Program-made: the position numbers and the translations under genes | The notes under the pieces: generated by a model | The model's input: only the letters and a program-made list of their open reading frames with translations | What the model was told of the DNA's origin: nothing | The model's database searches: none | Part shown: in pieces, positions 38,476 to 64,000 of the stretch | How positions within the stretch are numbered: position 1 is the stretch's first letter | How the letters are laid out: the number at the start of each line of letters is the position of its first letter | Source of the DNA: a virus | Direction: 5' to 3' (one strand) | Virus record (IMG/VR): IMGVR_UViG_3300020057_000027 | Location: 100,107 to 164,106 of that record | Length of the DNA stretch: 64,000 nucleotides

Positions 38476-41400
38476 ATGGCAAGAATTCGTGGTATAGGAC
38501 AGATTGACAGAAACACTAATCTAGTGTCTGATCAATTAATTGGCGTAGAGTCTGGGACTCTTGATACCCTCATTTCAACTGACGGCACGCAAGTTCGTTT
38601 TGTTAAAGAAGGTACTGGAGCTTTAGCTTACTTTGAATCCAACAAACTTCTTTGGACTTCTAGTGCTGGTTTAACGCACGTTGTTGGAACTAATTCTGTT
38701 GATGGTGCTGATACTAGAACACTTCTTTTAAGTTCTTCTGATAGTGCTAACGCCGCTAGAGGTGCTTTCATTACTCTTGCTGGTAATGAGGCTTCAGTAA
38801 ATCCTAGTTCTATATTTCTTACTAGTGGCAATGCTACTAACTCTTTAATCTCTATTAACGCAACTGGAAGTAATGGTACTATACAATTACATTCCTCAAA
38901 TATTTTGCGATTAACACTTACTTCAGGTGGTTCATTAGAATATAATAACAACATGACTATTCATGCGGCGTCTGTTGATGGTGCTGATAATCAAAGAATA
39001 GTTATTAATGGTGGCGGTAATACTGGTGGTATAGATCCTGCTAGAGGAGCTGGTTTACAACTTTCTGGTAATGAAGAATCTAATCCTGGCTTAGCACAGA
39101 TATTTTCTGGTGATGCAGTTGGAAGTAAAATACAATTCTTTACTCCTGGAAATTATCCAATTAGATTTTGGACTAACTCAACACAAAGATGGGACATAGA
39201 CGGCTCTGGTCATTTAGTTCCTGCTAGTGCTTCAGCATATAATTTTGGTAGTGCTAGTTCTCCTGTCAACAATGTTTACGCAACAAGTATTGGTTTATTT
39301 GCTGCATCAAGTTTTTCTATATTTACTAACAACATTAATAGATGGCAAGTAAATTCTACTGGAAGTTTTATTCCTGGAGCCAGCAATACTTACGATATTG
39401 GTACTGATACATCAAGAGTTAGTCGCATCTATGCACAAAATGAATTAAGAGTTGATGCTATTAGTAAAGCTGATGCTGATGGAGTTATGTCTTTCGCTTC
39501 GGGTACAGGAGCATTACCATATATTAAATTACAAGGAACAACTGGTAATAAAATTACTGCTGGAACTTCTGATGGTGCTGATAATACATATGTAAAATTG
39601 GCGGGTGGTGGAGATGTAGGAAGTTCTCGTGGTGCTACCATAGAATTATATGGTAATGAAGCTCCATCTTCTAACAACGGAAAAGTTTTAATTCAAGGTG
39701 GACAAGATGCTAATGGAACAATACAACTTCAAACCAATAATGCTTCTGCTGGAATTAATTTAACTACTGGTGGTAACAGTGCCAATATAACTCTTGAAGG
39801 AAATTCTGGTGGTGCAAAATGGTTATATGTTGCTAACGATGGTGAATTAGAATTTACTGGAACAACTACCGGCTTTATTGGTACTACAACAAGTGATGGA
39901 GCAGATAACGCATCACTATATCTTTCTGCCGGCGGTGGCGGCGCGGGAACAAACGCGAGTTTGCCAACTAGAACTGGTTCTCTAACACTTAGAGGTAATG
40001 AAAATGCTTTTGGTGGTCAAGTATTCCTACAAGGTGGAGCTGTTGCTTCAGGTAAAATAAGATTACAAACCAATCACGCAACACCAACTATTGATATTGA
40101 AGCAAATACTTTAGTTACTTGGTCATTCAATAGCACAGGACAACTAGTTCAAAATGCAACCAATGGCGATAATATAATCATTAACCGTAATGGTAAAGGT
40201 ATATTCCATGGCAATAATGCTATGGACTTGATTTTTGGTGATAGCACTCTCGGAGCTTTCATTGTTGCTAGTGGTAGTACAGTAAGCAGTGAAATGTTAA
40301 TTTCTACTGGCCCAACGGTTTCTGGAGCTGCTTTATATCTAAGAGCGCAAGGCGCAACTGCTCCTATATTATTACAAGCTGGAGGTGCTACTACTAGATG
40401 GTCTGTATTATCTTCAGGTCATTATGTTCCTTTTGTCGGCAGCACATATGATATTGGAACTACTTCATTAAGAGTTAGAAATCTTTATGTAGATAATATA
40501 ATTGGAGGTGCTGGTGGTGGCTCATTAAGCACATTAGCTAATGATACATTCTTAAATGGTAGAAACTTTGCTAATAGTGCTGATGTTGGTTTAATTAAAT
40601 TAAGTGTTGCTGATGATACTACTATTAGTTCAGCTAGTGCTAAGAAAATTAAATTAATGAATATTGCTGGTTCTGCTTATGTTGGCACATTTGATTATGT
40701 TAATCAATCTTTAACCCTTGCTGCCACTGCTGGTGTTAGTAGATTAATTCAAACTTCTGCCACTATTGATTCTCGTTGGACACTTGATGTTGCTAACTCA
40801 CGATCAATAGTAGGAAATACAACTTCTCATGATTTATATTTTAATACAACCAATTTAAATAGATGGTATATTGATACCACAGGAAGACTTGCGGAAGATC
40901 CTACAAATGGTAATGGTATTCTATTACAAAATCCTACAAGTGGTATAGAATATAATAGTGCTTCAGGCGATCTATATTTCGGTTCTATACAGTCTAATGA
41001 TCTTAGATTCTATACTAATAATAGTAATAGATGGAGAATAAAAAATACTTCAGGTAACTTAGAGCAAGATGTAACTAACGGCGGCGATCTTGTATTTAAT
41101 AAGTCTTCTGGAATTATTCGACAAGGCACTGTTGATGCGACAGATACTAACTCTATTTCTCTAGTCGGCGGTGGTGCAGAAGCGACTAGCAGAGGCTCAT
41201 ATATTAGAGTTTCTGGTAATGAACATGCAGATTTAGGAAAAGTAATAATTCAATCGGGTGCAGTAGCCGGCGCAGATATTAGAATGGACGTTGGCTCTAA
41301 TGCTAACATCTATCAACTTTCTATCGGTAATACACCGGTAGATCAAAATTCTGGCACATTAAGAACTTTCACTACTAGAGATCGTCCAACCGTGGATGGC

Positions 41401-43395
41401 GTGAACTTCATATTCAATGCAAAATATCCAGATATTACTTCCACTGTAACTCGTTATCAAAAAGTTGCAGAGTTTAGAGGTTATGATCCTAAAATAAATG
41501 TTGGTATAACTGATTCTGGTTATAGAATTGGTATAGCAGTTGAGCATTACTTCAATACAGCAAATTTTGCTGGAACCCTTGCTGAACAGTATGGTACATG
41601 GTCGAGAGTTGGACTCCATACTCTTAATCCAACCGGCACAATATCTAATTCATATGCACTATATGCAGAAACTTTAAATTTTGGTATAGCTGGCTCTATC
41701 ACTAATGCTTGGGGTATCTTTCAAGCATCAAACGGTGGCGGGAATACTAAGAACTATTTTGAGGGTCGTGTTGGTATTGGTGTTGCGCCTGCGACCGGAT
41801 TCTTTCTCGATGTTGCTGGAGCATTACAAGTTGCCGGTAACATTCAGTACACTCCTTCTATATTTTCTATTGCTGCAAATACTGCTGATGGTGCAGACAA
41901 TAAGAAAATTATAATTGGTGGTGGCGGTGCTGCTGGATTTGCACAAGTAGGACGTGGCGCATATCTAGAACTTGGCGGCAACGAAAGTAATTCTGGTGGT
42001 GCAACACTTTCAACTGGTGACGCTGGCGGACATCTATATCTCTACACTCGTAACAGTGCTGCTGATATTTACTTTAATGCAGGAGCAATCGGAAACTGGA
42101 AAGCATCTGGTGCAGACGGCGACCTAGTATTCAGTGGTTCAACTTCAAGAATTCATGCTGATACTGCTGATGGCGCAGACACAAAAAGACTATTACTTTG
42201 TGGTGGTGGAATTCAAGGTGATTCTAGAGGCGGTACAATATATCTCTACGGAAATGAGCACGGAAGCACCGGTTCAGTAGAAATATTAGCAGGCGGTGCA
42301 GGTTCAATCTATTTTGAAACTCTAAATGCTGTTCAGTGGCAAGTTCAAAATGCTGGACATTTAGTACCTGGCTCAAATAATACAAAAGATATTGGTAATT
42401 CTAGCTTAGGTATACGCGACATTTACTTGCGCGATCTTTTAGTTAGAGGTGCAATCACTGGCACTGCAACTAACACACTTAATATCACAACTGGTACTGT
42501 TGATGGCACAGACAACATGAGATTAGAAATATCTGGTGGTGGTGATATTGGTTCTTCTCGTGGAGCTTATATTTCTCTTTTTGGTAATGAAGAAGCTAAT
42601 ACGGGAAGAATAGATCTTGTTGCCGGTAACGTTTCTGGTGGACATATTACTATATCAACTGCCGGAGCAGAGAGATGGAGAATAATAAACTCATCAAATT
42701 CTAACTTACAGTTCAGCACAACAAACGGTTATATTTTCGCTACTACTTCTGATGGCTCGGACAGTGCTAGACTTATTCTATCGGGTGGCGGCAACGTTTT
42801 AGATACTGCTAGAGGCGGTTACATTACTATCAATGGTAATGAACATGCTGGACTTGGTGGTATTCAAATACAATCTGGAATTGGTACGGCTGGTGTTGGT
42901 ATTAACATTCAAGTTAATAGCACTACCGGAGAACTAAATCTTGGCACTAATGCTACAACAAGATTAGCTATAGATGCTAATGGTAGAACACAACATAGAG
43001 CATTTACTGGCTACACACCTTCAGGTAAATTTGAAATTCCCGTAGTAGCAAATACAACTAATGCGACTACAGCTAATCTTTATACTTTAACATTAGCAGA
43101 TAATACTACCTACATATTCACTGTAACTCTTGGCGGAAGATTTAATAGCACTACAGCCAAAGGTATTGGTGGAAAACTTAAGTTCACTGTCTATAGAAAC
43201 AATGCTGGAGCTGCTGTTATTGCTTCAGACTTGGGAGGAAGAATTAAAGAAATAGAAACCTATGGTTCTCCGGGATATGATTTTGATGTAGATGTTTCAA
43301 GTAATGATATAAGAATCAGAATTACTGGAGCGGCGGCAGAAACAGTTTCTTGGATTGGTAATATAGAATACTTAGCGGTTTCAACGGCAACATAA
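38476..43395 (+). CDS. Long tail fibre built of GGG/GNE repeat modules (1639 aa)
   Basis: The protein has nine copies of a module reading roughly (T/S)xDGADNxxLxLxGGG...RGAxIxLxGNE...GxxxLxxG, for example DGADNTYVKLAGGGDVGSSR. These alternate with fibre segments of the type GHLVPxSxxxYDIGxxxxRVxxIYA. About residues 990-1120 form a unique domain. The C-terminus (TGAAAETVSWIGNIEYLAVS) matches the end of the 35006 fibre. It is expected to trimerise as a long fibre shaft with beta-sandwich beads. The next gene encodes a fibre of the same module type with a chaperone domain. Confidence 0.8.
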   Translation: MARIRGIGQIDRNTNLVSDQLIGVESGTLDTLISTDGTQVRFVKEGTGALAYFESNKLLWTSSAGLTHVVGTNSVDGADTRTLLLSSSDSANAARGAFITLAGNEASVNPSSIFLTSGNATNSLISINATGSNGTIQLHSSNILRLTLTSGGSLEYNNNMTIHAASVDGADNQRIVINGGGNTGGIDPARGAGLQLSGNEESNPGLAQIFSGDAVGSKIQFFTPGNYPIRFWTNSTQRWDIDGSGHLVPASASAYNFGSASSPVNNVYATSIGLFAASSFSIFTNNINRWQVNSTGSFIPGASNTYDIGTDTSRVSRIYAQNELRVDAISKADADGVMSFASGTGALPYIKLQGTTGNKITAGTSDGADNTYVKLAGGGDVGSSRGATIELYGNEAPSSNNGKVLIQGGQDANGTIQLQTNNASAGINLTTGGNSANITLEGNSGGAKWLYVANDGELEFTGTTTGFIGTTTSDGADNASLYLSAGGGGAGTNASLPTRTGSLTLRGNENAFGGQVFLQGGAVASGKIRLQTNHATPTIDIEANTLVTWSFNSTGQLVQNATNGDNIIINRNGKGIFHGNNAMDLIFGDSTLGAFIVASGSTVSSEMLISTGPTVSGAALYLRAQGATAPILLQAGGATTRWSVLSSGHYVPFVGSTYDIGTTSLRVRNLYVDNIIGGAGGGSLSTLANDTFLNGRNFANSADVGLIKLSVADDTTISSASAKKIKLMNIAGSAYVGTFDYVNQSLTLAATAGVSRLIQTSATIDSRWTLDVANSRSIVGNTTSHDLYFNTTNLNRWYIDTTGRLAEDPTNGNGILLQNPTSGIEYNSASGDLYFGSIQSNDLRFYTNNSNRWRIKNTSGNLEQDVTNGGDLVFNKSSGIIRQGTVDATDTNSISLVGGGAEATSRGSYIRVSGNEHADLGKVIIQSGAVAGADIRMDVGSNANIYQLSIGNTPVDQNSGTLRTFTTRDRPTVDGVNFIFNAKYPDITSTVTRYQKVAEFRGYDPKINVGITDSGYRIGIAVEHYFNTANFAGTLAEQYGTWSRVGLHTLNPTGTISNSYALYAETLNFGIAGSITNAWGIFQASNGGGNTKNYFEGRVGIGVAPATGFFLDVAGALQVAGNIQYTPSIFSIAANTADGADNKKIIIGGGGAAGFAQVGRGAYLELGGNESNSGGATLSTGDAGGHLYLYTRNSAADIYFNAGAIGNWKASGADGDLVFSGSTSRIHADTADGADTKRLLLCGGGIQGDSRGGTIYLYGNEHGSTGSVEILAGGAGSIYFETLNAVQWQVQNAGHLVPGSNNTKDIGNSSLGIRDIYLRDLLVRGAITGTATNTLNITTGTVDGTDNMRLEISGGGDIGSSRGAYISLFGNEEANTGRIDLVAGNVSGGHITISTAGAERWRIINSSNSNLQFSTTNGYIFATTSDGSDSARLILSGGGNVLDTARGGYITINGNEHAGLGGIQIQSGIGTAGVGINIQVNSTTGELNLGTNATTRLAIDANGRTQHRAFTGYTPSGKFEIPVVANTTNATTANLYTLTLADNTTYIFTVTLGGRFNSTTAKGIGGKLKFTVYRNNAGAAVIASDLGGRIKEIETYGSPGYDFDVDVSSNDIRIRITGAAAETVSWIGNIEYLAVSTAT

Positions 43396-50630: not shown

Positions 50631-52784
50631 ATGGGATTTCAAGTATCGCCCGGAGTAAATGTAAGTGAAATTGATCTTACTACTATTGTCCCTGCCGTAT
50701 CAACTACTGACGGTGGTTTCTGTGGTGTGTTCAAATGGGGGCCGCTCAACGAGATCGTTCTTGTTGGAAACGAAAATGACGTAGTAAGACGATTCGGTAA
50801 ACCCGATTTGGAAACTGCTACTTCGTTCTTCACTGCCGCAAACTTTTTAGCTTACGGAAATAAACTTCGTATTGTTCGTGCTGCAAGCACAGCAACACAA
50901 TCTGTTGCCTTCACTGGCGTAAGTTCTACTGGAACTGCTGTAACTGGTTCAGGCTTCTTGCTTGGTGCTTTACGTGTACGTCCTGGAGACACTATTGTTT
51001 TTGGACTTGACGAAAGAAATGTAACTGCTGTTGCAAGTGATATCGCATTAACTATTGATGCTGCATTTTCTCCAGATTTAAGTTCTGCTGCTGTTACCAT
51101 TAAAATCTTTGTTGGAGCTTTAAATGCTACTTCAGAAGAAGGTACTGGAACTGCTGCTCCTGGTATCGGAGTTCTTATTAAGAATGACGATGACTATACA
51201 CAAAACTATTCTAGCGGTTTAGCTAACGTTGGACCTTTTGCTGCTAAGTATCCTGGAGCATTAGGTAATGCTATTTTGGTTTCTATTTGTCCAAGTGGTA
51301 GCACTAATCCTGCAACTGCTAACGCATTTAAACAAAACCTTGCTGGCACTGTTTCTAGTTCTGGTGTTACTTTAACTGGTACTGGAACTGACTTCTTAAA
51401 TAAATTAACTGTTGGTTCTATCGTTAGAGATTTAGCTTCAGGTCAAGAAAGAAAGATCGCTTCTGTAGTATCTGCTACTTCAGCAGATACCGATACCGCT
51501 TTCTCTCCTGTATTACTTGGTGCTTCACTTTCTGCTAAATGGGAATTCGCTGATGCTATCGGTGTTGCTCCTGGAACTTCTGACTATGCTGCTGATCGTT
51601 CTAGTTCTGCTGATGAACTTCACGTTGTAGTTATTGACGCAAATGGAGATATCTCTGGTACTAAAGGTGCTGTTCTTGAAAGACATGCTTTCCTTTCTAA
51701 AGCTGCTGATGCTAAGAGTCCAGATGGTGCTTCTGTTTATTACGTAAATAAAATCAATGAAGTGTCAAACCTAATACGTTGGACAGATCATCTTCCTGCT
51801 GGATTAAACTGGGGAAGTAGTGCCGCTGGTATTGCTTTCACTGCTATTAATAAGCCATACACAGTTCGCTTGAAAGGTGGACGTGATGTGAATACTGGAG
51901 GCGCTGTAGAGGGCGCACGTATTCAAGGTTACGATTTGTTTGCTAATGCTGATCTAGTTGATGTATCACTTGTTCTATTAGGTGAAGCATCTTCAGCAAT
52001 CGCAATTTCTGTAATCAATAACGTTTGTGAAGTGCGTAAAGATTGTGTTGCTTTTATCTCACCAGAAAAAGCTGACGTAGTTGATAACGTAGATAACGAA
52101 GTTGAAGATTCTATTGAATTCCGCGATACTCTTCCATCAAGCTCGTATGCTTTTATGGACAGTGGTTGGAAACTTCAATACGACAAATACAATGACGTTA
52201 AGAGATGGGTTCCTTTGAATGGTGATATTGCTGGTCTATGTGTTAGAACAGATACTATTGCTGATCCTTGGTACTCTCCTGCTGGATATAACAGAGGTAA
52301 TATTAAAAATGTATTACGTCTTGCTTATAGCCCACACAAAGCGCAAAGAGATGACTTGTATCTTTCTGGAATCAATTCTGTAATTGACGAACACGCTCAA
52401 GGCACTGTATTGTTTGGAGATAAAACTCTTCTTGCTAAACCAAGTGCGTTTGATCGTATTAACGTTCGTAGATTGTTTATTGTTCTTGAAAAAGCAATTG
52501 CTCGTGCTTCTAAATTTACTTTGTTTGAATTCAACGATTCATTCACAAGATCACAATTTAGAAACCTTGTTGAGCCTTTCTTGAGAGATGTTCAAGGTAG
52601 ACGTGGAATATATGACTTCAAAGTTGTATGTGATACATCTAACAACACTCCTGAAGTAATTGACCGTAACGAGTTTATTGGAGATATTTACATCAAGCCA
52701 GCACGTTCGATCAACTTCATTCAGTTGAACTTTATTGCTGTAAGAACTGGTGTCGAATTTGCTGAAATTGTTGGTAAATTCTAA
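50631..52784 (+). CDS. gp18: Tail sheath protein gp18
   Basis: 717 residues (T4 659). The start (FQVSPGVNVSEIDLTTIVPA, then FCGVFKWGPLNEIVLVGNEN) and the C-terminal half (WYSPAGYNRGNIKNVLRLAY, LFEFNDSFTRSQFRNLVEPF) are typical of contractile sheaths. Two copies of a roughly 60-residue beta module lie at about 92-158 and 237-303 (FTGVSSTGTAVTGSGF, LAGTVSSSGVTLTGTGTDF) and probably form outward-facing domains. Strong AAGGAG precedes ATG 50631. Confidence 0.94.
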   Translation: MGFQVSPGVNVSEIDLTTIVPAVSTTDGGFCGVFKWGPLNEIVLVGNENDVVRRFGKPDLETATSFFTAANFLAYGNKLRIVRAASTATQSVAFTGVSSTGTAVTGSGFLLGALRVRPGDTIVFGLDERNVTAVASDIALTIDAAFSPDLSSAAVTIKIFVGALNATSEEGTGTAAPGIGVLIKNDDDYTQNYSSGLANVGPFAAKYPGALGNAILVSICPSGSTNPATANAFKQNLAGTVSSSGVTLTGTGTDFLNKLTVGSIVRDLASGQERKIASVVSATSADTDTAFSPVLLGASLSAKWEFADAIGVAPGTSDYAADRSSSADELHVVVIDANGDISGTKGAVLERHAFLSKAADAKSPDGASVYYVNKINEVSNLIRWTDHLPAGLNWGSSAAGIAFTAINKPYTVRLKGGRDVNTGGAVEGARIQGYDLFANADLVDVSLVLLGEASSAIAISVINNVCEVRKDCVAFISPEKADVVDNVDNEVEDSIEFRDTLPSSSYAFMDSGWKLQYDKYNDVKRWVPLNGDIAGLCVRTDTIADPWYSPAGYNRGNIKNVLRLAYSPHKAQRDDLYLSGINSVIDEHAQGTVLFGDKTLLAKPSAFDRINVRRLFIVLEKAIARASKFTLFEFNDSFTRSQFRNLVEPFLRDVQGRRGIYDFKVVCDTSNNTPEVIDRNEFIGDIYIKPARSINFIQLNFIAVRTGVEFAEIVGKF

Positions 52785-52790
52785 TAAATA
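52783..52790 (+). promoter_or_regulatory. Variant late promoter AATAAATA
   Basis: Overlaps the sheath stop codon and precedes the tube gene by 22 bp. Confidence 0.45.
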
Positions 52791-52811
52791 TTAACTTAGG
52801 GAGAAACCAAA

Positions 52812-53405
52812 ATGGCTTTTAAAATTCAAGATATCAAGACAGCATTAGAGTTTGGTGGAGCACGTCCGTCACTCTTTAGAGTAGAGCTAGACCTTCCGCT
52901 TGCTATAAGCGGAGGTCAAATTCTTCCACAAGGCGGTTCACAAGCGGCAGATAAAACTACATTCAAAAACAAATTAAGTTTTCTATGTAATGCTGCTTCT
53001 TTACCCTCTTCAACTATTGCTCCAATCGAAGTATCATACTTTGGTAGAAAAATTAAGGTTGCTGGTAATAGAACATTCCCTGAATGGACATTGACTATTA
53101 TCAACGATGAAGATTTTGCTTTAAGAAATGCTTTTGAATCATGGATGGGAGCTATCAACGGACATACAACTAACTTACGTAACTCTGGTGCTACATCAAC
53201 TCCAGATACATATAAGGTAGACGGTAAGGTATTACAATTTGGAAAAGCTGATGATCAGTCTCCAATTAGAAAGTACCAATTTCAAGGTTTGTTTCCAACT
53301 GAAGTTTCTGCTATTGAAACAAATTGGGCAACCGAAAATGAAATTGAAAGTTTCACTGTAACCCTTCAGTACGACTTATGGGTTCTTGACGCCAGCAAAG
53401 AATAA
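52812..53405 (+). CDS. gp19: Tail tube protein gp19
   Basis: 197 residues (T4 163). The pattern ARPSLFRVELDLP, LSFLCNAASLPSSTIAPIEV, YFGRKIKVAGNRTFPEWTLT and FPTEVSAIETNWATENEIES is that of T4 gp19-type tube proteins. It builds the hexameric inner tube. Placed between sheath and portal as in T4. Confidence 0.94.
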   Translation: MAFKIQDIKTALEFGGARPSLFRVELDLPLAISGGQILPQGGSQAADKTTFKNKLSFLCNAASLPSSTIAPIEVSYFGRKIKVAGNRTFPEWTLTIINDEDFALRNAFESWMGAINGHTTNLRNSGATSTPDTYKVDGKVLQFGKADDQSPIRKYQFQGLFPTEVSAIETNWATENEIESFTVTLQYDLWVLDASKE

Positions 53406-53415
53406 TTTAGGCTCA

Positions 53416-53423
53416 CCTAAATA
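53416..53423 (+). promoter_or_regulatory. Variant late promoter CCTAAATA
   Basis: NNTAAATA-type element between tube and portal genes. Confidence 0.35.
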
Positions 53424-53480
53424 TCAAGTGAAGGTCTTGGAGATAATCACAAGCCTATTATAGTATGAACAGGAGAGCAA

Positions 53481-55589
53481 ATGGATTTTAAATTATTCGG
53501 TTATACATTAAAAAAGACTGAACTAGAAAAAGCTAAAGAAGATGCTAAGTCTTTTGTACCGCCTACTAATGAAGATGGCGCAGTAACCGTTGAAGGTGTT
53601 GGTGCCTACGGAGCCTTCATTGACCTTGAAGGCTCTTCTAAAAACGAATTTGAATTAATCACACGCTATAGAGAAATGGCACTTCTACCTGAAGTAGATA
53701 GTGCTATAGACGACATTGTTAATGAAGCAATTGTTGTTAATGGACAAAGAGATGCCGTAGAAATTAATCTCAGCAATATCAAAGAAAAGAAAGAAGTTAA
53801 AGAAGCAATCTATGAAGAGTTTGATAATATTCTTACTCTATTAAATTGGAATCAAAACTCATACGACCTATTCAGAAAATGGTATATAGACGGTAGACTG
53901 TTTTTTCACGTTATACTAGACGATCAAAAAAAGAAAAATGGGATCTTAGAACTTCGATATATTGACCCAAGACAAATTCGTAAAGTTAGAGAAATAGAAA
54001 GAGATGTTTCAGAACAGGGTGTTGAGCTATTAAAAGTTGCCGATGAATATTACGTGTTCAACCAAAGAGGACTTCTTCGTGGTGGTTCTGGTAATACCAC
54101 ATACACTGGCGCATCTACTACCGTAGAAGGTATTAAAATTTCTACTGATTCAATTCTATTTGTTCATTCTGGTATTGTAGATAAATTTTCTTCTACCATT
54201 CTTTCTAATCTACATAAAGCATTAAAAGGAATGAATCAACTAAAAATGATGGAAGATGCGATGGTTATCTATCGTATTGCTCGTGCTCCAGAAAGAAGAA
54301 TTTTCTATGTTGATGTTGGTAATCTTCCTAAATCAAAAGCTGATGCATATCTTAGAGATATCATGCAAAGATATCGTAACAAGATGGTCTACAATATCGA
54401 AACTGGAGAAGTCAAAGACGATAGACGAACACTTTCTATGCTTGAAGACTTTTGGTTGCCGAGGAGAGAGGGATGCCTTTCATTGAATACGCAGATAGAT
54501 TTACTAGATGGCCGTCAAGTTCCTTTAAGTGATTTAATATTAGAATATGATCAAGGCAAACAAAACTGGACATACTCTGTTTCACCCGAAGGAGAAATAG
54601 TTCCTGGCCTGATATCTTGGGCTGGCGTTACACGCAAAAATACTGATGTGCTTAAAATAACTCTCGACAACGGCGAAGAAGTTATAGCAACACCAGATCA
54701 CAAATTTATTTTGCGAGACGGCACTAAAATAGAAGCAAGAGATCTGAAACCACAAGATTCGTTAATGCCTTTCTATACGAGAGAGAAAGATAAACAAATA
54801 TTAAGTAAAGCAGAATACTTAGAAAAATGGTCTCCTGGCTTGGCTAAAATGCAAGCGATGAATGAAGAAAAGAAACTCCATAACCATAAAGTCGTTTCAA
54901 TAGAAATACTTTCTGAAAGAATGGATGTCGGAACCTTAACAATTGATAAAGACCACAGATATCACGATTATCACAACTTTGCTCTATCGGCTGGAATCTT
55001 TGTGATGAACAGTCAGGGCACTTCTATTGATACACTTCCAGGTGGTGAAAATCTTGGTGAGATGGCAGACGTTGAATACTTTCAGAAGAAATTATATAAA
55101 GCACTTAATGTTCCAGTATCAAGATTAGATCCAGAAAATGGTTTCCAATTAGGACGTGCTGCTGAAATTACTCGTGATGAATTGAAGTTTACTAAATTCA
55201 TCTATAGACAAAGAATTAGATTCTCACACCTATTCATTGAACTATTAGAAAAGCAACTAACTATAAAGGGTATTGTAAACCGAGATGAATGGGAGAATAT
55301 AAAAGAGCAAGTAACTTTTGATTGGGCTAACGATAATCACTTTACTGAATTGAAAGACTCTGAAATTCTTAGAAACAGACTTGAGCTTATTCAATTGATA
55401 GATCCATACACACAAAAATACTTCTCAGTTAAGTGGATTAGAAAGAACGTACTAAAACAGACTGAGGATGAACAGAAAACTGTGGATAAAGACATTGTAG
55501 CTGAAAAAGACGTTTACCCTGATCCGGCTCCCGCTCCGGGAGAAGATGGGGTTAAAATGACTAATTTTGATGATGGTAACGAATTTTAA
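53481..55589 (+). CDS. gp20: Portal protein gp20 carrying an intein
   Basis: 702 residues as translated. Residues 1-331 and 511-702 match T4 gp20: ELITRYREMALLPEVDSAID, LELRYIDPRQIRKVREIERD, YRIARAPERRIFYVDVGNLP, LEDFWLPRREG, then DTLPGGENLGEMADVEYFQK and RLDPENGFQLGRAAEITRDE. The T4 motif LPRREGxxGTxIxTLPGG is broken after LPRREG by 179 residues (332-510) with intein blocks. The spliced product is 523 residues, against 524 in T4. The dodecameric portal nucleates the prohead and is the docking site of terminase. GGAG lies upstream of ATG 53481. Confidence 0.95.
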   Translation: MDFKLFGYTLKKTELEKAKEDAKSFVPPTNEDGAVTVEGVGAYGAFIDLEGSSKNEFELITRYREMALLPEVDSAIDDIVNEAIVVNGQRDAVEINLSNIKEKKEVKEAIYEEFDNILTLLNWNQNSYDLFRKWYIDGRLFFHVILDDQKKKNGILELRYIDPRQIRKVREIERDVSEQGVELLKVADEYYVFNQRGLLRGGSGNTTYTGASTTVEGIKISTDSILFVHSGIVDKFSSTILSNLHKALKGMNQLKMMEDAMVIYRIARAPERRIFYVDVGNLPKSKADAYLRDIMQRYRNKMVYNIETGEVKDDRRTLSMLEDFWLPRREGCLSLNTQIDLLDGRQVPLSDLILEYDQGKQNWTYSVSPEGEIVPGLISWAGVTRKNTDVLKITLDNGEEVIATPDHKFILRDGTKIEARDLKPQDSLMPFYTREKDKQILSKAEYLEKWSPGLAKMQAMNEEKKLHNHKVVSIEILSERMDVGTLTIDKDHRYHDYHNFALSAGIFVMNSQGTSIDTLPGGENLGEMADVEYFQKKLYKALNVPVSRLDPENGFQLGRAAEITRDELKFTKFIYRQRIRFSHLFIELLEKQLTIKGIVNRDEWENIKEQVTFDWANDNHFTELKDSEILRNRLELIQLIDPYTQKYFSVKWIRKNVLKQTEDEQKTVDKDIVAEKDVYPDPAPAPGEDGVKMTNFDDGNEF
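54474..55010 (+). mobile_element. Mini-intein in the portal gene (179 aa)
   Basis: Cys1 begins CLSLNTQIDLLDGRQVPLSD (block A). Block B is GEEVIATPDHKFILRDG with the Thr-x-x-His core. The C-terminal blocks read HRYHDYHNFALSAGIFVMN with terminal Asn and +1 Ser in the extein. Only about 45 residues separate the splicing halves, so there is no homing endonuclease. The usual penultimate His is Met here, a known tolerated variation but notable. The flanking exteins rejoin exactly at a conserved portal motif. Confidence 0.93.
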
Positions 55590-55602
55590 TAAACTTGGAA
55601 AG

Positions 55603-55610
55603 GATAAATA
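55603..55610 (+). promoter_or_regulatory. Variant late promoter GATAAATA
   Basis: Immediately upstream of the prohead core gene; the distance to its ATG is only 5 bp, so it might instead serve genes further down. Confidence 0.35.
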
Positions 55611-55615
55611 CATAT

Positions 55616-55777
55616 ATGTCAAAAAAGAAACTAAAAAACCTTATTAAGTTAGCTTCAGAAATGAACCTTTCGGCTTTCAGAAAGACGCTAAAAGAAGTTC
55701 TTTTGGCTAAGACAGCTAAGAGACTTGACGAAAAAGAAGTACAGCTTTCCAAGAAACTTTTTAAAGAGAAACGTTAG
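55616..55777 (+). CDS. Prohead core protein, gp67/gp68-like
   Basis: 53 residues from ATG 55616 (GGAAAGGA upstream; an in-frame upstream start at 55595 is not preferred). Basic helix-rich chain (IKLASEMNLSAFRKTLKEVL, AKTAKRLDEKEVQLSKKLF). Short proteins of this size and pattern stand between genes 20 and 21 in T4 (67 and 68) and fill the scaffold core; the assignment rests mainly on position. Confidence 0.7.
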   Translation: MSKKKLKNLIKLASEMNLSAFRKTLKEVLLAKTAKRLDEKEVQLSKKLFKEKR

Positions 55778-55786
55778 GCCTAAGAA

Positions 55787-56452
55787 ATGAAACTCATTAC
55801 AGAAGTAAATGAAAATTTAGCGTACAAGGTTATTACCGAAGAAAAGTCTGGCGGTAAAAACTACTTCATTGAAGGTATCTTTCTCCAAGCAGAAATGAAG
55901 AACCGCAATGGAAGAATGTACCCTAAAGAACTTCTACAAAATGAAGTTAAAAGATATATTAAAGAGTACGTAGAAAAGAATCGTGCTTTTGGTGAATTGG
56001 GACATCCAGATGGTCCGACTATCAATCTTGATCGTGTATCGCATATGATTACCGAATTAAGAGAAGATGGTGATAATTTTATTGGTAAAGCTAAAATATT
56101 AGTTGACTTGCCTAACGGTAAAATCGTTAAGGCTTTTATTGATGCTGGTGCTTCACTTGGCGTATCTTCTCGTGGTATGGGTTCGTTAAGAACCGAAGGC
56201 CACGATATACAGATAGTTCAAGATGATTTTTATCTTGTAACGGCTGGTGACATTGTTGCCGACCCTTCTGCTCCTGATGCTTTCGTAAATGGCATCATGG
56301 AAGGTAAAGAATGGGTTTGGGATAATGGGCTCATCAAAGAACGTACCATTGCCGGCTACAAGAAAGAAATATCTAAGGCTCCTGCTAAGAAGATTCGTGA
56401 AGTAAGCGTAAAAGCTTTTGAAGACTTCATGAAACGACTTAGCAGAGGATAA
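55787..56452 (+). CDS. gp21: Prohead core protease gp21
   Basis: 221 residues (T4 212). NGRMYPKELLQNEVKRYI, FGELGHPDGPTINLDRVSH (His73, His86) and GASLGVSSRGMGSL (Ser127/Ser128) form the phage prohead serine protease core, with DFYLVTAGDIVADPSAPDAF following. It matures scaffold and capsid proteins during assembly. It is followed directly by an unrelated gene rather than the scaffold gene 22. Confidence 0.93.
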   Translation: MKLITEVNENLAYKVITEEKSGGKNYFIEGIFLQAEMKNRNGRMYPKELLQNEVKRYIKEYVEKNRAFGELGHPDGPTINLDRVSHMITELREDGDNFIGKAKILVDLPNGKIVKAFIDAGASLGVSSRGMGSLRTEGHDIQIVQDDFYLVTAGDIVADPSAPDAFVNGIMEGKEWVWDNGLIKERTIAGYKKEISKAPAKKIREVSVKAFEDFMKRLSRG

Positions 56453-57028
56453 ATGTTCACGCATAAAGATTTAATAAGAACATTAAAGACTGAATTACTT
56501 ACTGACCCCGAACATTTAGGGTATAGTAGATATTTTGCTTATCCGGCGCAGATCGCTGCTTTAATGAATCAACCACAAAGACAATCAGAAATACAATCTA
56601 CTAGTATAACTAAAGCATTAGAATATCTAACTTGGCTTGAGGAATTAAAGGTAGTTAATAATGTACAGCTTGTAAAAGAACTAGTTGAGTTTTTAATATA
56701 TCATGGAGCAGGAAATGCAGTTAATAATACTGTTGCTACCGAAGAAAGTGATGGATTGTTAAGAATTCTTAAATTACTAGGCATAGATTTTTTTCTAAAT
56801 ATGTTTGGTATATCATCATATTGGGGTGATAAAGAAAAGCTTAAGATGGCTGTTTTAGATGTTTTGGAACACGCTTCAAAAATAGGACAGAAAAAGTATT
56901 CTGTTCATATAAGTAATAAAATTATTTCATGTAGAATTCTTAGATTATTTAGTGGTGTTGCTGGGGCGCCAAACGCCGTGACTGAAAAAGATATTATTGA
57001 TACAAAACATTACGCTAATATAATATAG
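56453..57028 (+). CDS. Hypothetical 191-aa protein after the protease
   Basis: It starts directly after the protease stop. The N-terminus LIRTLKTELLTDPEHLGYSR then AAQIAALMN-like text (YPAQIAALMNQPQ) resembles small proteins in other phages that read LKxELxTDPxxxGYA...AxxLN, of unknown role. The centre is helical. The C-terminus has VSGVAGAP-like loops. Not a scaffold by sequence. Confidence 0.65.
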   Translation: MFTHKDLIRTLKTELLTDPEHLGYSRYFAYPAQIAALMNQPQRQSEIQSTSITKALEYLTWLEELKVVNNVQLVKELVEFLIYHGAGNAVNNTVATEESDGLLRILKLLGIDFFLNMFGISSYWGDKEKLKMAVLDVLEHASKIGQKKYSVHISNKIISCRILRLFSGVAGAPNAVTEKDIIDTKHYANII

Positions 57029-57038
57029 GAAAACAAAA

Positions 57039-57521
57039 ATGGCTTCAACATTAAACATTACATATTCAGCTTCAGCAAGTATAACTTGTACTCTTGCTTC
57101 TTTAGCTACTGCTTCAGCAAGATCTTGCGATGCTGTAGATAACGGCACAAACAAATATATTGATGCTATACTATATCTTGCTATACCTTTGGTTACGGGC
57201 ACTCCGGCCTCAGATAAAGCTATCAACGTTTGGTTCTATGGTTCAGAAGATGGAACAAACTATACCGATAACTCTTTAGGTACTAATGCTGCTGTTACAT
57301 TAAGAGTACCAACAAATTTGCGTGGACCTTTTATCATAACAACTCCAACTGCTGGTGCTTTAACCTATAAAGCAACTATAGGTTCTGTTGCTTCTTTCTT
57401 TGGTGGCATACTTCCTAGAAAATGGGGATTTGTTATTGAGAATAGAACTAACTTAGCTTTCAATGCAACTGAAGGAAATTTAATAAAGACTTTTACTGGT
57501 ATAACATATACGACGACTTAA
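57039..57521 (+). CDS. Phage virion beta-sandwich protein
   Basis: 160 residues with AGGAA upstream. The pattern ITCTLASLATASARSCDAVD, YIDAILYLAIPLVTGTPASD and INVWFYGSEDGTNYTDNSLG matches a phage protein group reading ITxTLASLAxGxARxSxAVDN...VYxYGSxDGGxxYTD, found near fibre or decoration genes. Probably a structural protein associated with the giant repeat protein downstream. Confidence 0.65.
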   Translation: MASTLNITYSASASITCTLASLATASARSCDAVDNGTNKYIDAILYLAIPLVTGTPASDKAINVWFYGSEDGTNYTDNSLGTNAAVTLRVPTNLRGPFIITTPTAGALTYKATIGSVASFFGGILPRKWGFVIENRTNLAFNATEGNLIKTFTGITYTTT

Positions 57522-57551
57522 TAAAACCCTTTAGGAGTGTGAAGAGTCGTT

Positions 57552-60500
57552 ATGTATAATTTCCGACGTAGTAAATTAATAGCCCAACCAATGCAGCCAA
57601 TAGTGGACGGAAACCACTATTTGAGCAAAGGCCTCGTGGGTTATTGGCCGTGTTCTGTAGATACTGCTACTGGTGGTACAGGAGCATTAAAAGACTATTC
57701 AGGTTATGGTAATCACGGCACAATAAGTAATACTTCTATAACTTATTCAACTACTCCTGGCCCTCTTAATGCTGTTGGTCTTAATTTCCCAAGCATAAAA
57801 CAATTTGTATCATTTACGACTCCGGCTGGACTTCCTGCTTATCCAACTGGAGCAAACCAATTAACTATATCATTCTGGATTAAATCAAATTCAGCAACTC
57901 TTAAAGATATTGTTCAATATAATGCTGGGACTACTAGCGGAACAAATTTATTAATACAAACTTCTAGCGATAATATACAAATAGATTTCGGTTCGGCTGG
58001 ACATATTTGGGGAACGGCGGCGAGTACCATATCGCAAAACTACATGTCTCATGTGGTTATAGTTGTGCCACCTGGAGCTACCTTAACTTCAGATATAAAA
58101 ATTTACATTAATGGTATTGACGTTGCAGTATCAACTTTATCTGGAACGGCTGCTACCTTAAATCTATCTGCTGCCGATTGGCTATTTGGTGAAAGAGGAC
58201 CTTCTCAAGCTAATAAAGCAGATCAAATTTTATCTGAAGTTCGTTTATATAATAGAGCATTACAAAGTTCAGAAGTTAGAGAATTATATTCCGACCCTTG
58301 GTCTGGACTTATTAATCCTGCTAATGAAATATTATATACTTTTGCTGGTGTCCCACCGACACAAAACATACAACCAACAGGAATATCTTCTGCTGAAGCA
58401 TTTGGTTCACATAAAATAAACCAAAATATTAATACGGTGGGAAATATATCTTCTACTCAAGCTTTCGGCACTCATCAACTCAACCAAAAAATTCATAATG
58501 TTGGAGCGATAGTAAGCGCAGAAGCTTTCGGGACACACAAACTTAATCACGTAATTAAACCTATAGCCATAACATCACAAGAAGTTTTTGGTATACCAAA
58601 ATTACATTTGGTTATCTATACTACTGGCCCACCAATTCTATCGGCCGAAACATTTGGAACTCATAAGCTAAATCAAAAAATACATCTTGTTGGTAATATT
58701 GCTTCTGTTGAAGCCTTTGGTTCTCACAAACTAAACCAAAGAATTTCTCCTACATCTATTACAACACTAGAAGCTTTTGGTTCTCACAAACTAAATCTAA
58801 AAATACATAATGCTGGCAACATTGCTAGTGCTGAAGCTTTCGGAACTCCAACAATAGTTCCTGGAACCGCTTACGTTCTTCCATCTGGTATTATAAGCCA
58901 AGAGGCTTTTGGTTTACATGAACTTGATTTAGAAATAGAAGAGCCTGGAGTTCCTAGTGCGGAAGCATTTGGTTTACACCAGATCAACCAAAAAATCAAA
59001 CCATCTTCTATAGATTCATTAGAAGCTTTTGGTTCACATAAAGTAAATCTTAATATTCATGTAATTGGTATTACATCTGATGAAGCTTTTGGTACTCACA
59101 TAATAGAAGTTGGAGATGTTATTATCTCTACTTCTTCTATAAACTCACTAGAAGCATTTGGTTCTCATAAAGTAAATCTTAATATTGTTCCTTCTTCTAT
59201 TGATTCATTAGAAGGTGTTGGACTACCACACATAAAACATCATATTAAGCCAGCATCAATTGATAGTGCTGAAACTTTTGGTACACACCAATTAAATCTT
59301 TATATTGTTCCATCTTCTATTAATAGTAATGAAGCTTTTGGCAGTCATACCTTAACAACTGGCAATGTAAATATATTACCATCTTCTATTGATTCATTAG
59401 AAGTATTTGGTGTACACAATATAGTACATAAGATTAAACCATCTTCTATTGATTCAGAAGAAGCTTTTGGTTTGCATCAATTAAATCTTACTATCTTCCC
59501 GTTGGGTATTCTATCTCAAGAATATGTCAATGAAGCTCCTGGAGTTGAATATGAAATAGAACCTCCATCTATTAATAGTGCAGAAGATTTTGGTTTCCCA
59601 ACTATAACTTCTATTGTATCTATTCAAGTAACTTCTATTAATAGTGCCGAAACTTTTGGTTTACATAAAGTAAATCAAAAAATTCATGCTCAAAGTATTA
59701 CAAGTCAAGAAGCTTTTGGTTTACATAAGTTTAGTTACATAATATATCCAGATCACGTAAACAGTGCTGAAGCTTTTGGTTCACCTATTATACTTTCTGT
59801 TGTTTACGTACAACCATCTTCTATAGACTCACTAGAAGCTTTTGGTTCACATTCATTACATCTTAGAATATTCCCACAAGCAATAAACACTTCGGAAGCT
59901 TTTGGTTCACATTCATTATCGGCTGTTATATACCCATCTTCTATTAACAGTGAAGAAGCATTTGGCACACATCAATTAAATCTTTATGTTGTTCCTTCTT
60001 CTATTGATTCTACTGAAACATTTGGTTCACATACTGTAACACCTGGAACGGCTTACGTTCTTCCATCTGGTATTGTTAGCCAAGAAGCTTTTGGTTTACA
60101 TGAACTTGATTTAGAAATAGAAGAGCCTGGAGTTCCTAGTGCTGAAGCATTTGGCACACATCAAATTAATCAAAAGATTAAACCTAGTTCAGTAGACAGT
60201 GATGAAGCTTTCGGAACTACAATGTTGGTTCACGAGATTGAGCCAAGCTCAATTGATAGTGAAGAAGCATTTGGCACTCCAACAATAGTAAGTGGAAATA
60301 TTAATATCTATCCATCTTCTATATCTTCATTAGAATCTTTTGGTACACATAAAGTAAATCAAAAGATTCATGCTGAAAGTATTACAAGCCAAGAAACTTT
60401 TGGTAATCTAAAAATTAATTTTGTTATCTTTGCTCAAGATATCAATACTCAAGAAACTGTAAATGAACCTACATTACATTTAAAGATTTTCATTAATGAG

Positions 60501-63500
60501 ATATTTTCATCTGAAGCTTTTGGTTCACATGTAATACAACCTGGAGTTGTTTACATTCAACCAAGTTCAATAACTTCATTAGAAGCCTTTGGCTCTCATA
60601 AAGTAAATCATCTTATCAATATCACAAGTATTGATTCGGAAGAAGCTTTTGGTACACATCTATTAATTCTTTATGTTGTTCCTTCTTCAATAACTTCTGA
60701 AGAAGCTTTCGGAACTCCAACACTAACTTCTATAGCTTACATTCAACCAAGTTCAATTGATAGTGAAGAGTATATTGGAACTCATAGTGTTGTACAAGTA
60801 ATACAACCTAATGCTATTGATACAGAAGAATTTGTAAATGATGTAAATGTAGTTCAAGTAATACAACCACTATCAATTAACTCACAAGAAATGTTTGGTG
60901 GTCTGGATGATATTGAACAAAACATTTATCCACCAAGTATTAATTCGGCTGAATCGGTTGGTTTCCCAATAGTACAACCTGGAGCTGTATACATTCAACC
61001 GACTTCTATTGATTCGGAAGAAGCTTTTGGTATAGCACAACTTTCTATTTCTATAATAGTAAATGCTATTACTACCGAAGAAGTATTCGGATATCATATC
61101 GTTCATCAAAATATTCACACAACATCTATCTTTGAAGATGAATATGGAACACCACAAGTAAATCTAAACATTCATGTTCTTGGTATAGCATCATTAGAAG
61201 CTTTCGGTTCACACCAATTAAATTACATCATCTATCCTATTGGTGTTACTTCTGATGAAGCTTTCGGAACTACAATGTTGGTTCATGAGATTGAACCAAG
61301 TTCAATCAATAGTAATGAAGCATTTGGCACTCCAACATTAACATCTAATGCTTATATTAATCCATCTTCTATAACATCATTAGAAGCATTTGGTACACAC
61401 CAAGTAAACTTAAATGTTCATGTTCTTGGTATAGCATCATTAGAAGAATTTGGTACTCACCAATTAAATCTTACTATCTTCCCAGTAAGTATTACTAGTG
61501 AAGAAGCATTTGGCTCACACCAATTAAATCTTTATATTGTTCCATCTTCTATTGATTCAGAAGAATACATTGGCTCACATAGTTTAGTTCAAGTAATACA
61601 ACCATCTTCTATAACATCATTAGAAGCTTTCGGTACTCATCAATTAAATCTTACTATCTTTACTCAAGCTATTGGTAGTGATGAAGCTTTTGGTTTACAT
61701 CAATTAAATCATGTTATTAATATTACATCAATTGATAGCGAAGAAGCTTTTGGCACTCATCAAGTAAATCTAAACATTCATGTTCTTGGTATAGCTAGTG
61801 AAGAGGCATTTGACACTCCAACATTAACATCTAATGCTTATATTAATCCATCTTCAATTGATAGTGAAGAGTATATTGGAACACACTTATTTGTTCTTGA
61901 AATTGAAAATGGTAATATTTCTTCAGAAGAAGCATTTGGTACTCACCAATTAAATCTTACTATCTTCCCAGTAAGTATTACTAGTGATGAAGCTTTTGGT
62001 TCACATAGTATAGTTCAAATAATACAACCTAATAGTATTGATAGTGAAGAGGCTTTCGGAACTCATCAATTAAACCAAAACATATACACTCAAGCTATTG
62101 GAACAGAAGAAGCATTTGGCACACACCAAGTAAACTTGAATATTCATGTTCTTGGTATTGCTAGTGAAGAGGCTTTCGGAACTCATCAATTAAATCAAAA
62201 TGTATATTCTGTTGGTATTACTTCTGATGAAAACTTTGGTTCACATCAATTAAATCTTACTATCTTCCCACAAGATATTAACACCGATGAAGCTTTCGGA
62301 ACTCCAAGTCTAGTTCAAGTAATACAACCATCTTCTATAACATCATTAGAAGCTTTCGGTACTCATCAATTAAACTTGAAGATCTTCATTGATACTATTA
62401 ACAGTGATGAAGCATTTGGTACTCCTGATCTAACTGCCGCGTATTTAATATACCCATCTTCTATAGATTCACTAGAAGCTTTTGGTTCACATCAATTAAA
62501 CTTGAAGATCTTCATTGATACTATTAACAGTGATGAAGCATTTGGTACTCATCAATTAAATCTTCATATAACAACTATTGGTATTACCACTGGAGAAATC
62601 TTTGGTACACCACAACTAAACTTAGTAATATATCCATTTGATATACCATCACAAGAAGTTTTTGGTTCACATCAATTAAATGTAAACATTCTTCCTGTCG
62701 GTGTTGTTACCGAAGAGTATATTGGCACACATCAAATTGATCTTGAAATTGAGAATGGTAATGTTGATTCTGGAGAAGAATTCGGCACACATCAAATCAA
62801 TCAAACAATATTATATGCTGGTGATATAGTAAGTAATGAAACATTTGGTGTACAACCTCTAATAATAATATATGTTGATCCTCTTGCTATAGACTCAGAA
62901 GAGTATATCGGCACACATCAATTAAATTACATCATCTATCCTGTTGCTATAGATTCAGAAGAATTTGTAAATGGTGGCGATGAACAGATCATACATGAGG
63001 TTGAGCCTGTAAGTATTCCTTCAGAAGAGTATATTGGCTCACATAGTCTAGTTCAAGTAATACAACCTAATACTATTGGTTCTGAAGAAGCCTTCGGAAC
63101 TCATATGCTAGTTCACGAAATTGAACCTGTAAGTATTCCTTCGGAAGAAGCTTTTGGTTTACCTTATTTAACTTCAAGTATAACTTTAACTGGTATACCT
63201 TCTGATGAAGCTTTCGGAACTCATCAACTTAACCTTACTATCTTCCCTGTAAGTATTGATAGTGAAGAAGTTGTAAACCAAGTTAATGTAGTTCAAGTAA
63301 TACAACCTACAGAAATAACTTCGGAAGAAGCTTTTGGTAATCATACGCTATCACAAAGAATATACTTGGTTGGTATATTGAGTGAAGAGTATATTGGAAA
63401 CTTAAAAGTAAATCAAGAGTTCCAAGATGGTTTCATACCAAGTGCTGAAGCCTTCGGAACACATCAACTAAACTTCACAATATTCCCACAAGATGTTAAT

Positions 63501-64000
63501 AGTGATGAATCTTTTGGTAATGCTAATATTAATTACATAATAAAACCTTTTGGTATTTCTTCTGCTGAAAATGTAAATTCACCTAAAGTAAATCTACACA
63601 TTCACTTAACTGGAATCAATAGTGATGAATTGTTTGGTACTCATACACTAGTATCTACTATTCATGTTCTATCTATTAACAGTGATGAAGCTTTTGGTTT
63701 ACATCAAGTTAATCTGAATATACACACTATTAGTATTGATAGTGAAGAAGCATTTGGAACTCATCAATTAAATCTTACTATTTTCCCTGTACAAATTGAT
63801 AGTGAAGAATACATTGGCGCACATAGTCTTGTTCAAATAATACAACCAACTTCAATAGACAGTGAAGAAGCATTTGGCACACATCATCTTAAGCATATTA
63901 TTAAACCAGTTTCAATTAATTCACAAGAAGCTTTTGGTACTCATACAATTGTATCTACTATTCATGTTCTATCTATTGATAGCGAAGAATACATTGGCAC
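57552..64000 (+). CDS. Giant LamG plus 20-residue-repeat protein, 3' end outside window
   Basis: ATG 57552 (GAAGAG at 57541-57546) opens a frame with no stop to the window end, at least 2149 codons. Residues about 25-260 form a LamG/concanavalin-like domain (LVGYWPCSVDTATGG, LKDYSGYGNHGTI, LTISFWIKS, KIYINGIDV, SEVRLYNRALQSSEVRELY), a sugar-binding fold. From about residue 272 on, a repeat of 20 residues (xSIDSEEAFGTHQLNLTIFP) runs to the end, about ninety copies. There is no signal peptide. EAFG-type repeats are known in phage tail proteins, but this number is exceptional. It is likely a virion adhesin or decoration fibre. Confidence 0.85.
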   Translation, partial: MYNFRRSKLIAQPMQPIVDGNHYLSKGLVGYWPCSVDTATGGTGALKDYSGYGNHGTISNTSITYSTTPGPLNAVGLNFPSIKQFVSFTTPAGLPAYPTGANQLTISFWIKSNSATLKDIVQYNAGTTSGTNLLIQTSSDNIQIDFGSAGHIWGTAASTISQNYMSHVVIVVPPGATLTSDIKIYINGIDVAVSTLSGTAATLNLSAADWLFGERGPSQANKADQILSEVRLYNRALQSSEVRELYSDPWSGLINPANEILYTFAGVPPTQNIQPTGISSAEAFGSHKINQNINTVGNISSTQAFGTHQLNQKIHNVGAIVSAEAFGTHKLNHVIKPIAITSQEVFGIPKLHLVIYTTGPPILSAETFGTHKLNQKIHLVGNIASVEAFGSHKLNQRISPTSITTLEAFGSHKLNLKIHNAGNIASAEAFGTPTIVPGTAYVLPSGIISQEAFGLHELDLEIEEPGVPSAEAFGLHQINQKIKPSSIDSLEAFGSHKVNLNIHVIGITSDEAFGTHIIEVGDVIISTSSINSLEAFGSHKVNLNIVPSSIDSLEGVGLPHIKHHIKPASIDSAETFGTHQLNLYIVPSSINSNEAFGSHTLTTGNVNILPSSIDSLEVFGVHNIVHKIKPSSIDSEEAFGLHQLNLTIFPLGILSQEYVNEAPGVEYEIEPPSINSAEDFGFPTITSIVSIQVTSINSAETFGLHKVNQKIHAQSITSQEAFGLHKFSYIIYPDHVNSAEAFGSPIILSVVYVQPSSIDSLEAFGSHSLHLRIFPQAINTSEAFGSHSLSAVIYPSSINSEEAFGTHQLNLYVVPSSIDSTETFGSHTVTPGTAYVLPSGIVSQEAFGLHELDLEIEEPGVPSAEAFGTHQINQKIKPSSVDSDEAFGTTMLVHEIEPSSIDSEEAFGTPTIVSGNINIYPSSISSLESFGTHKVNQKIHAESITSQETFGNLKINFVIFAQDINTQETVNEPTLHLKIFINEIFSSEAFGSHVIQPGVVYIQPSSITSLEAFGSHKVNHLINITSIDSEEAFGTHLLILYVVPSSITSEEAFGTPTLTSIAYIQPSSIDSEEYIGTHSVVQVIQPNAIDTEEFVNDVNVVQVIQPLSINSQEMFGGLDDIEQNIYPPSINSAESVGFPIVQPGAVYIQPTSIDSEEAFGIAQLSISIIVNAITTEEVFGYHIVHQNIHTTSIFEDEYGTPQVNLNIHVLGIASLEAFGSHQLNYIIYPIGVTSDEAFGTTMLVHEIEPSSINSNEAFGTPTLTSNAYINPSSITSLEAFGTHQVNLNVHVLGIASLEEFGTHQLNLTIFPVSITSEEAFGSHQLNLYIVPSSIDSEEYIGSHSLVQVIQPSSITSLEAFGTHQLNLTIFTQAIGSDEAFGLHQLNHVINITSIDSEEAFGTHQVNLNIHVLGIASEEAFDTPTLTSNAYINPSSIDSEEYIGTHLFVLEIENGNISSEEAFGTHQLNLTIFPVSITSDEAFGSHSIVQIIQPNSIDSEEAFGTHQLNQNIYTQAIGTEEAFGTHQVNLNIHVLGIASEEAFGTHQLNQNVYSVGITSDENFGSHQLNLTIFPQDINTDEAFGTPSLVQVIQPSSITSLEAFGTHQLNLKIFIDTINSDEAFGTPDLTAAYLIYPSSIDSLEAFGSHQLNLKIFIDTINSDEAFGTHQLNLHITTIGITTGEIFGTPQLNLVIYPFDIPSQEVFGSHQLNVNILPVGVVTEEYIGTHQIDLEIENGNVDSGEEFGTHQINQTILYAGDIVSNETFGVQPLIIIYVDPLAIDSEEYIGTHQLNYIIYPVAIDSEEFVNGGDEQIIHEVEPVSIPSEEYIGSHSLVQVIQPNTIGSEEAFGTHMLVHEIEPVSIPSEEAFGLPYLTSSITLTGIPSDEAFGTHQLNLTIFPVSIDSEEVVNQVNVVQVIQPTEITSEEAFGNHTLSQRIYLVGILSEEYIGNLKVNQEFQDGFIPSAEAFGTHQLNFTIFPQDVNSDESFGNANINYIIKPFGISSAENVNSPKVNLHIHLTGINSDELFGTHTLVSTIHVLSINSDEAFGLHQVNLNIHTISIDSEEAFGTHQLNLTIFPVQIDSEEYIGAHSLVQIIQPTSIDSEEAFGTHHLKHIIKPVSINSQEAFGTHTIVSTIHVLSIDSEEYIG
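58369..64000 (+). repeat. About ninety 60-nt coding repeats
   Basis: Period is 60 nt (20 codons), strict from about 59 kb; earlier units are 20-24 codons. The core is E-A-F-G-x-H-x-L/V-N, with variants EEYIG and E(E/N)xVN. Codon choice varies between copies (gaagcttttggt, gaagcatttggc, gaggctttcgga), though some units are nearly identical over 50-120 nt. Confidence 0.9.

Follow-up and report, generated by a model that had tools for sequence, protein, structure and literature searches.

A giant LamG-repeat gene between the prohead protease and scaffold genes of a T4-like phage, read as a candidate virion fibre of variable length

Introduction

T4-type head genes begin with the gene for the portal protein gp20. 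In the phage considered here, the head module contains, a short way after gene 20, an open reading frame of more than two thousand codons, which starts with a lectin-like domain and continues as a long array of 20-residue repeats. What might so large a protein do between the prohead protease and the scaffold, at a point where, as the original prediction from the DNA letters pointed out, T4-like genomes have genes 22 and 23 after gene 21? The window analysed here (64,000 b) is the final part of a virus record of 164,106 b.

Results

The gene order at the locus is 20, 21, a 191-aa protein, a 160-aa protein, the giant, a phrog_644 protein (135 aa), a Gp77-like protein (118 aa), 22 and 23 (Table 1). 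Genes foreign to T4 do follow gene 21, as had been suspected, and five of them separate gp21 from the scaffold gp22 and the capsid protein gp23. Upstream of this insert lie genes for the baseplate, tail fibres, neck, terminase, sheath, tube, portal and gp21. The insert is absent from DLP_6, Melnitz and HTVC008M, the phages closest in capsid protein. The other array proteins found in viral contigs have fewer repeats and none is longer than 1,336 aa in total, with no array above 1,291 aa, which makes the giant the largest found. Both its size and its place are therefore as unusual as first supposed. A family search with the 191-aa protein and a search of the phage collection with the 160-aa protein gave no match. 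For the 118-aa protein, the only Pfam match is to Gp77 (PF23148, the podophage GP4 fibre-tail adaptor) at 22.6 bits, below the cut-off of 27; the same holds for its ortholog at 19.6 bits. Two relatives are used repeatedly below, the circular T4-like genome G001 (167,808 b, loci L024 and L109) and L025. The portal gene, split by an intein in the window, also looks interrupted in L025 and is uninterrupted in G001.

Table 1. Features of the locus in window coordinates.
Feature	Position	Strand	Evidence or remark
Portal gp20 with intein	53481..55589	+	Portal_T4 E 2e-162; Intein_splicing residues 342-509
gp21 prohead protease	55787..56452	+	Peptidase_S77 E 2e-37; phrog_207
191-aa protein, insert gene 1	56453..57028	+	In L109, a shorter protein (125 aa) in the corresponding position is a likely relative
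160-aa protein, insert gene 2	57039..57521	+	65% identical ortholog across the ends of circular record G001
Giant LamG-repeat gene, 5' part (2,149 codons)	57552..64000	+	ORF open to window end
LamG (concanavalin A-like) domain, residues 100-242	57849..58277	+	Laminin_G_3 PF13385 E 7.5e-15
20-residue repeat array, window part	58380..63998	+	phrog_13352 E 1.5e-256; PSSM/DP and HMM counts
668 codons absent from contig L014	61728..63731	+	In-frame deletion between repeats both beginning SIDSEEAFGTHQ
106-b sequence also opening the record	63895..64000	+	In L015 as a 127-b version, twice, 729 b apart

The giant frame (57552..63998) has no stop up to the window end, and the expectation that it runs on was correct, since the same record continues it. 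The first 106 b of the record equal the last 106 b, and when the two ends are joined there the frame stays intact. The continuation occupies bases 107-1067 of the record (L009), so that extension of the contig, which had been proposed as a check, yields a stop at base 1067, a joined protein of 2,469 aa, and phrog_644, Gp77-like, 22 and 23 as the next genes. The sister contig L015 spans the junction. It has approximately 580 b more repeat DNA between its two 127-b copies, adds 243 aa in frame and arrives at the same stop. We therefore rejected the view that the record ends mark a physical genome end, and attribute the contig break to the exact recurrence of the 127-b sequence. In light of L015, the window's record probably lacks one repeat block, and the full giant is likely to have 2,712 aa (~300 kDa). 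Contig breaks within the array, and differences between strains, leave the exact repeat number uncertain. Assembled giant repeat genes can in general be under-counted, as contigs break at exact repeats.

Could the array itself be a product of assembly, from stacked or chimeric repeats? Every contig breaks in the array at related places, and the exact 127-b repeat is the kind of sequence at which this might happen. Nevertheless, the array order is given almost base for base by three further contigs: L012 is nucleotide-identical to the window array over 1,883 repeat codons, L013 matches across 1,366 codons apart from a single silent change, and L014 agrees outside its deletion. The source metagenomes may be related samples, so these contigs are not fully independent, but L024 has the array in an independent phage, and an artefact, if any, makes the array shorter. 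An artefactual origin is thus hardly credible, and the early stop or assembly error that had been named as the outcome fatal to the original prediction did not materialize: the frame continues in the record and the array recurs elsewhere. Separately, a comparison of L012 with window positions 52313-63996 shows identity in the array but numerous differences upstream of it, the pattern that a recent exchange or sweep of the array would leave.

The LamG domain in the giant is well founded, with 55.8 bits against a curated cut-off of 27.6 for Laminin_G_3, and it is also found in the ortholog of the related phage (E 6e-13, 49.6 bits). The array starts at residue 277 and reaches nearly to the C-terminus. 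About 88-90 units were counted in the window part, as good as the predicted 'about ninety'; 97 units are detected by HMM in the joined 2,469 aa, and the giant as a whole has about 100 to 120 copies. Over 88 units the consensus (in per cent) is S48 I89 x S88 x E97 A62 F81 G94 x H71 x L57 N51 x x I79 x P44, in agreement with the SIxSxEAFGxHxLNxxIxP pattern first described. The self-identity of the array at a lag of 20 residues is 0.30, compared to 0.078 (maximum 0.098) in 200 shuffles. The period was initially called an exact 60 nt. This is the modal value, but it is not exact: 66 of 95 intervals measure 20 aa, and the remainder are mostly 21-23 aa (22-23 in a second unit type) or reflect one skipped unit. 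The DNA of the joined gene contains no exact internal repeat of 80 b or more.

With respect to family, the array belongs to phrog_13352, whose profile it matches in 26 stretches. This is a 'minor tail protein' family of actinophages, consistent with the earlier remark that short EAFG repeats are familiar in phage tail proteins; a literature search for the EAFG repeat found no paper. A CdiI_4 Pfam match in the repeats fell below the cut-off and was taken as chance, and PDB sequence searches with the LamG domain, the 160-aa protein and the repeats returned nothing useful. AlphaFold2 modelled five repeats, with an alignment, at pLDDT 48. Sixteen repeats alone gave an all-beta model (pLDDT 69, pTM 0.72), for which the PDB held no match at E<=0.001; its best phage match was a glycine-rich protein of mycobacteriophage DS6A with a TM score of 0.52. 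In view of these values, we claim no fold for the repeats, neither the simple beta-solenoid for which a check had been proposed nor any other.

The same five-gene insert is present in G001, where the 160-aa gene spans the overlapping ends of the record. The G001 phrog_644 protein is 90% identical to that of the window phage, and its LamG-repeat protein has 1,291 aa and about half the repeats. In L025, the order is gp21, an 86-aa ORF, phrog_644, Gp77-like, gp22 and gp23. The 86-aa stub retains only three repeats, and its 3' end is that of the giant gene. It is not the result of mere repeat collapse, because the sequence of the missing 191-aa, 160-aa and LamG parts is unique. Contig L014 is 99.9% identical to the window phage across its own first 14.2 kb, and is the one contig from which the 668-codon deletion is known. 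The 1,291-aa version, the stub and the deletion together indicate that the repeat number is highly variable.

Variation of this extent raises the possibility that a short minor structural protein has expanded passively and under little selection, by slippage or recombination, into the array, and that the extra repeats have no function. The stub fits this explanation, all the more so as the 3' end of the giant gene includes a T4-type late-promoter motif, TATAAATA, 51 b before phrog_644, which alone might account for the retention of the stub. However, the frame, the E, G, F and I positions and the spacing have been kept across about 100 units whose DNA differs, to the point that the joined gene has no exact 80-b repeat, and no frameshift or stop occurs within the array in any contig examined. 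The long array kept in an independent relative (G001) argues in the same direction. We therefore regard passive expansion as quite improbable.

A second late-promoter motif precedes gp22, and both placements are repeated in L024 and L025. The motif TATAAATA is no commoner than base composition predicts (8 on the + strand, ~9 expected), but it is strand-biased (8 to 0) and well placed. A conserved C-terminal RNYKY was considered as a protein anchor motif and rejected. Its coding sequence in the window, L024 and L025 is AATTATAAATAT, which is a late-promoter motif of the T4 type located 43-54 b upstream of the start of phrog_644, and the conservation of RNYKY may therefore be at the DNA level.

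Discussion

Repeat family, LamG domain and partner family were all known before. New here are the size of the protein, the presence of a five-gene insert separating 21 from 22 in T4-like phages, and the evidence that the length changes rapidly. The actinophage minor tail proteins phiT46-1 gp23, McProf 72, MosMoris 90 and MaryV 45 have the same repeats, with a phrog_644 gene directly after the repeat gene as in the window phage, and their phrog_644 proteins are 57-70% identical to that of the window phage. These repeat proteins are smaller (about five to eight repeats, 580-720 aa). Among the IMG/VR loci fetched by phrog_644, 43 of 80 also have a repeat ORF. In actinophages, the pair mostly closes the tail module; the mycobacteriophage repeat proteins sit at the end of that module, unlike the giant between gp21 and gp22.

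The phrog_644 protein is a homologue of the Bxb1 'tail wing arm' gp31 (E 1.1e-22 to 9d93_Ra). The Bxb1 tail wing consists of a base, the gp31 arm and the gp33 brush (PDB 9d93); a passage of PMC13243192 mentions the gp33 brush and the gp29 spike, and one of PMC13148394 the tail wing base. The likeness to Bxb1 lies in the arm; the window phage differs in being T4-like and contractile-tailed and in having a giant repeat partner. A second lead comes from an unrelated phage (L078), in which a single chain joins a LamG domain, about 18 repeats and a C-terminal PF05354 head-tail attachment domain (lambda FII). With L140 and L141, this fusion is found in three metagenome contigs altogether. The protein resembles the giant in the N-terminal LamG domain, the repeat array and the adjoining phrog_644 gene, and differs from it in length (895 aa), in the fused neck domain and in a Phage_cap_E-type capsid. 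The fusion suggests the orientation and a neck location in the L078 phage, and is a concrete lead to the virion site of such repeat proteins. As neither the giant nor its C-terminal part matches PF05354, a neck site for the giant is an analogy.

Taken together, these data are best explained if the giant is a virion structural fibre, with its C-terminus at the neck or tail, the LamG domain as a distal glycan binder and the repeats as an adjustable shaft; we place the probability of this reading at about 0.6. The C-terminal end would be held at the particle with the help of two small partners, the phrog_644 and Gp77-like proteins. The array would form an extended, beta-rich spacer, and the N-terminal LamG domain, at or near the far end, may bind a host-surface glycan and so tether the phage before the normal tail fibres engage. 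As the shaft would consist of similar 60-nt units, in-frame recombination between them could lengthen or shorten it, and the fibre length would vary among close relatives. Scaled by the length per residue applied to phiCbK tail proteins (70-120 nm for 1,412 aa, PMC3556154), the fibre would measure about 120-230 nm, whereas a solenoid rising 0.48 nm per unit would give about 50-60 nm. The T4-like phage keeps tail-fibre and collar-domain genes of its own, and so does not depend on the giant as its sole fibre. The long appendages of the T4-type virion are the long tail fibres gp34-gp37 and the fibritin whiskers. The giant has no family match to either and differs from them in gene place; if the proposal is right, T4-like phages gain a long appendage that is not among their known fibres and whose length is quick to change. 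The domain order of the actinophage relatives, in which the repeats are N-terminal to other domains, differs from that of the giant and speaks against a fibre.

The original prediction of a very long head fibre or adhesin survives in part. The giant is best read as a long fibre or adhesin that has a lectin-like head, but a site on the phage head is not established, and the homologues whose location is known or inferred point to the tail tip or the neck. Alternatively, the giant could be a filament on the capsid shell or apical vertex, like the flagellum-catching head filament of phiCbK. The gene lies between gp21 and gp22/gp23, and similar arrangements occur in unrelated phages. In L078 and L085, a Phage_cap_E gene is found 0.4 kb before phrog_644; in L136, the phrog_644/repeat pair lies beside an ORF judged capsid-like by eye; and in the jumbo phage L120 the array adjoins the major head protein. 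One array was located in a bacterial bin contig, beside a capsid-like gene. In phiCbK, gp76 is a large lectin-domain protein near the head genes and a proposed head filament (PMC3556154), and is like the giant in size, concanavalin A-like lectin domain, tandem duplications and head-gene vicinity. However, it is glycine-rich, with 21% glycine (PMC3556154) compared to 7.4% in the giant's array, its lectin domain is central, and no sequence similarity to the giant was detected: a tblastn search of the phage collection matched only Mycobacterium phages and Virus Rctr197k, and no Caulobacter phage. Moreover, gene position is weak evidence, and homologous parts whose place is known are limited to the Bxb1 tail tip and the FII-type neck domain. 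A head filament thus seems unlikely, and a neck or tail site, C-terminus in and LamG out, is favoured over the capsid shell by about two to one. Following the L078 fusion, the neck site would also reconcile the position in the head module with closeness to tail assembly.

More generally, and as a tentative extension that we consider possible rather than probable, LamG-repeat arrays may be widespread adhesive filaments mounted at the neck or head. They would belong to a small mobile phrog_644 cassette, with their length tuned in populations by in-frame recombination of 60-nt units, and the T4-like version would be the longest found.

Several other features of these genomes deserve mention. The window encodes a second giant (23388-30416, 2,342 aa) of the DUF4815/phrog_358 type in the baseplate-fibre region, and, among the tail-fibre genes, a 1,639-aa protein (38476-43395) for which PHROGs, Pfam and the phage collection gave no match. 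The scaffold gp22 (L009:1940-3355) contains an acidic insert in which DEDKMAKLRAMKE-like units recur, and similar units are found in L025. Directly after the capsid gene gp23 there is a free-standing GIY-YIG endonuclease gene (L009:4806-5552), and the UvsW helicase (L009:8235-10778) is split by an intein that contains the homing endonuclease domains Hom_end_hint and LAGLIDADG_3. In G001, the large terminase consists of two ORFs around a GIY-YIG domain insertion (L109:3716-6456).
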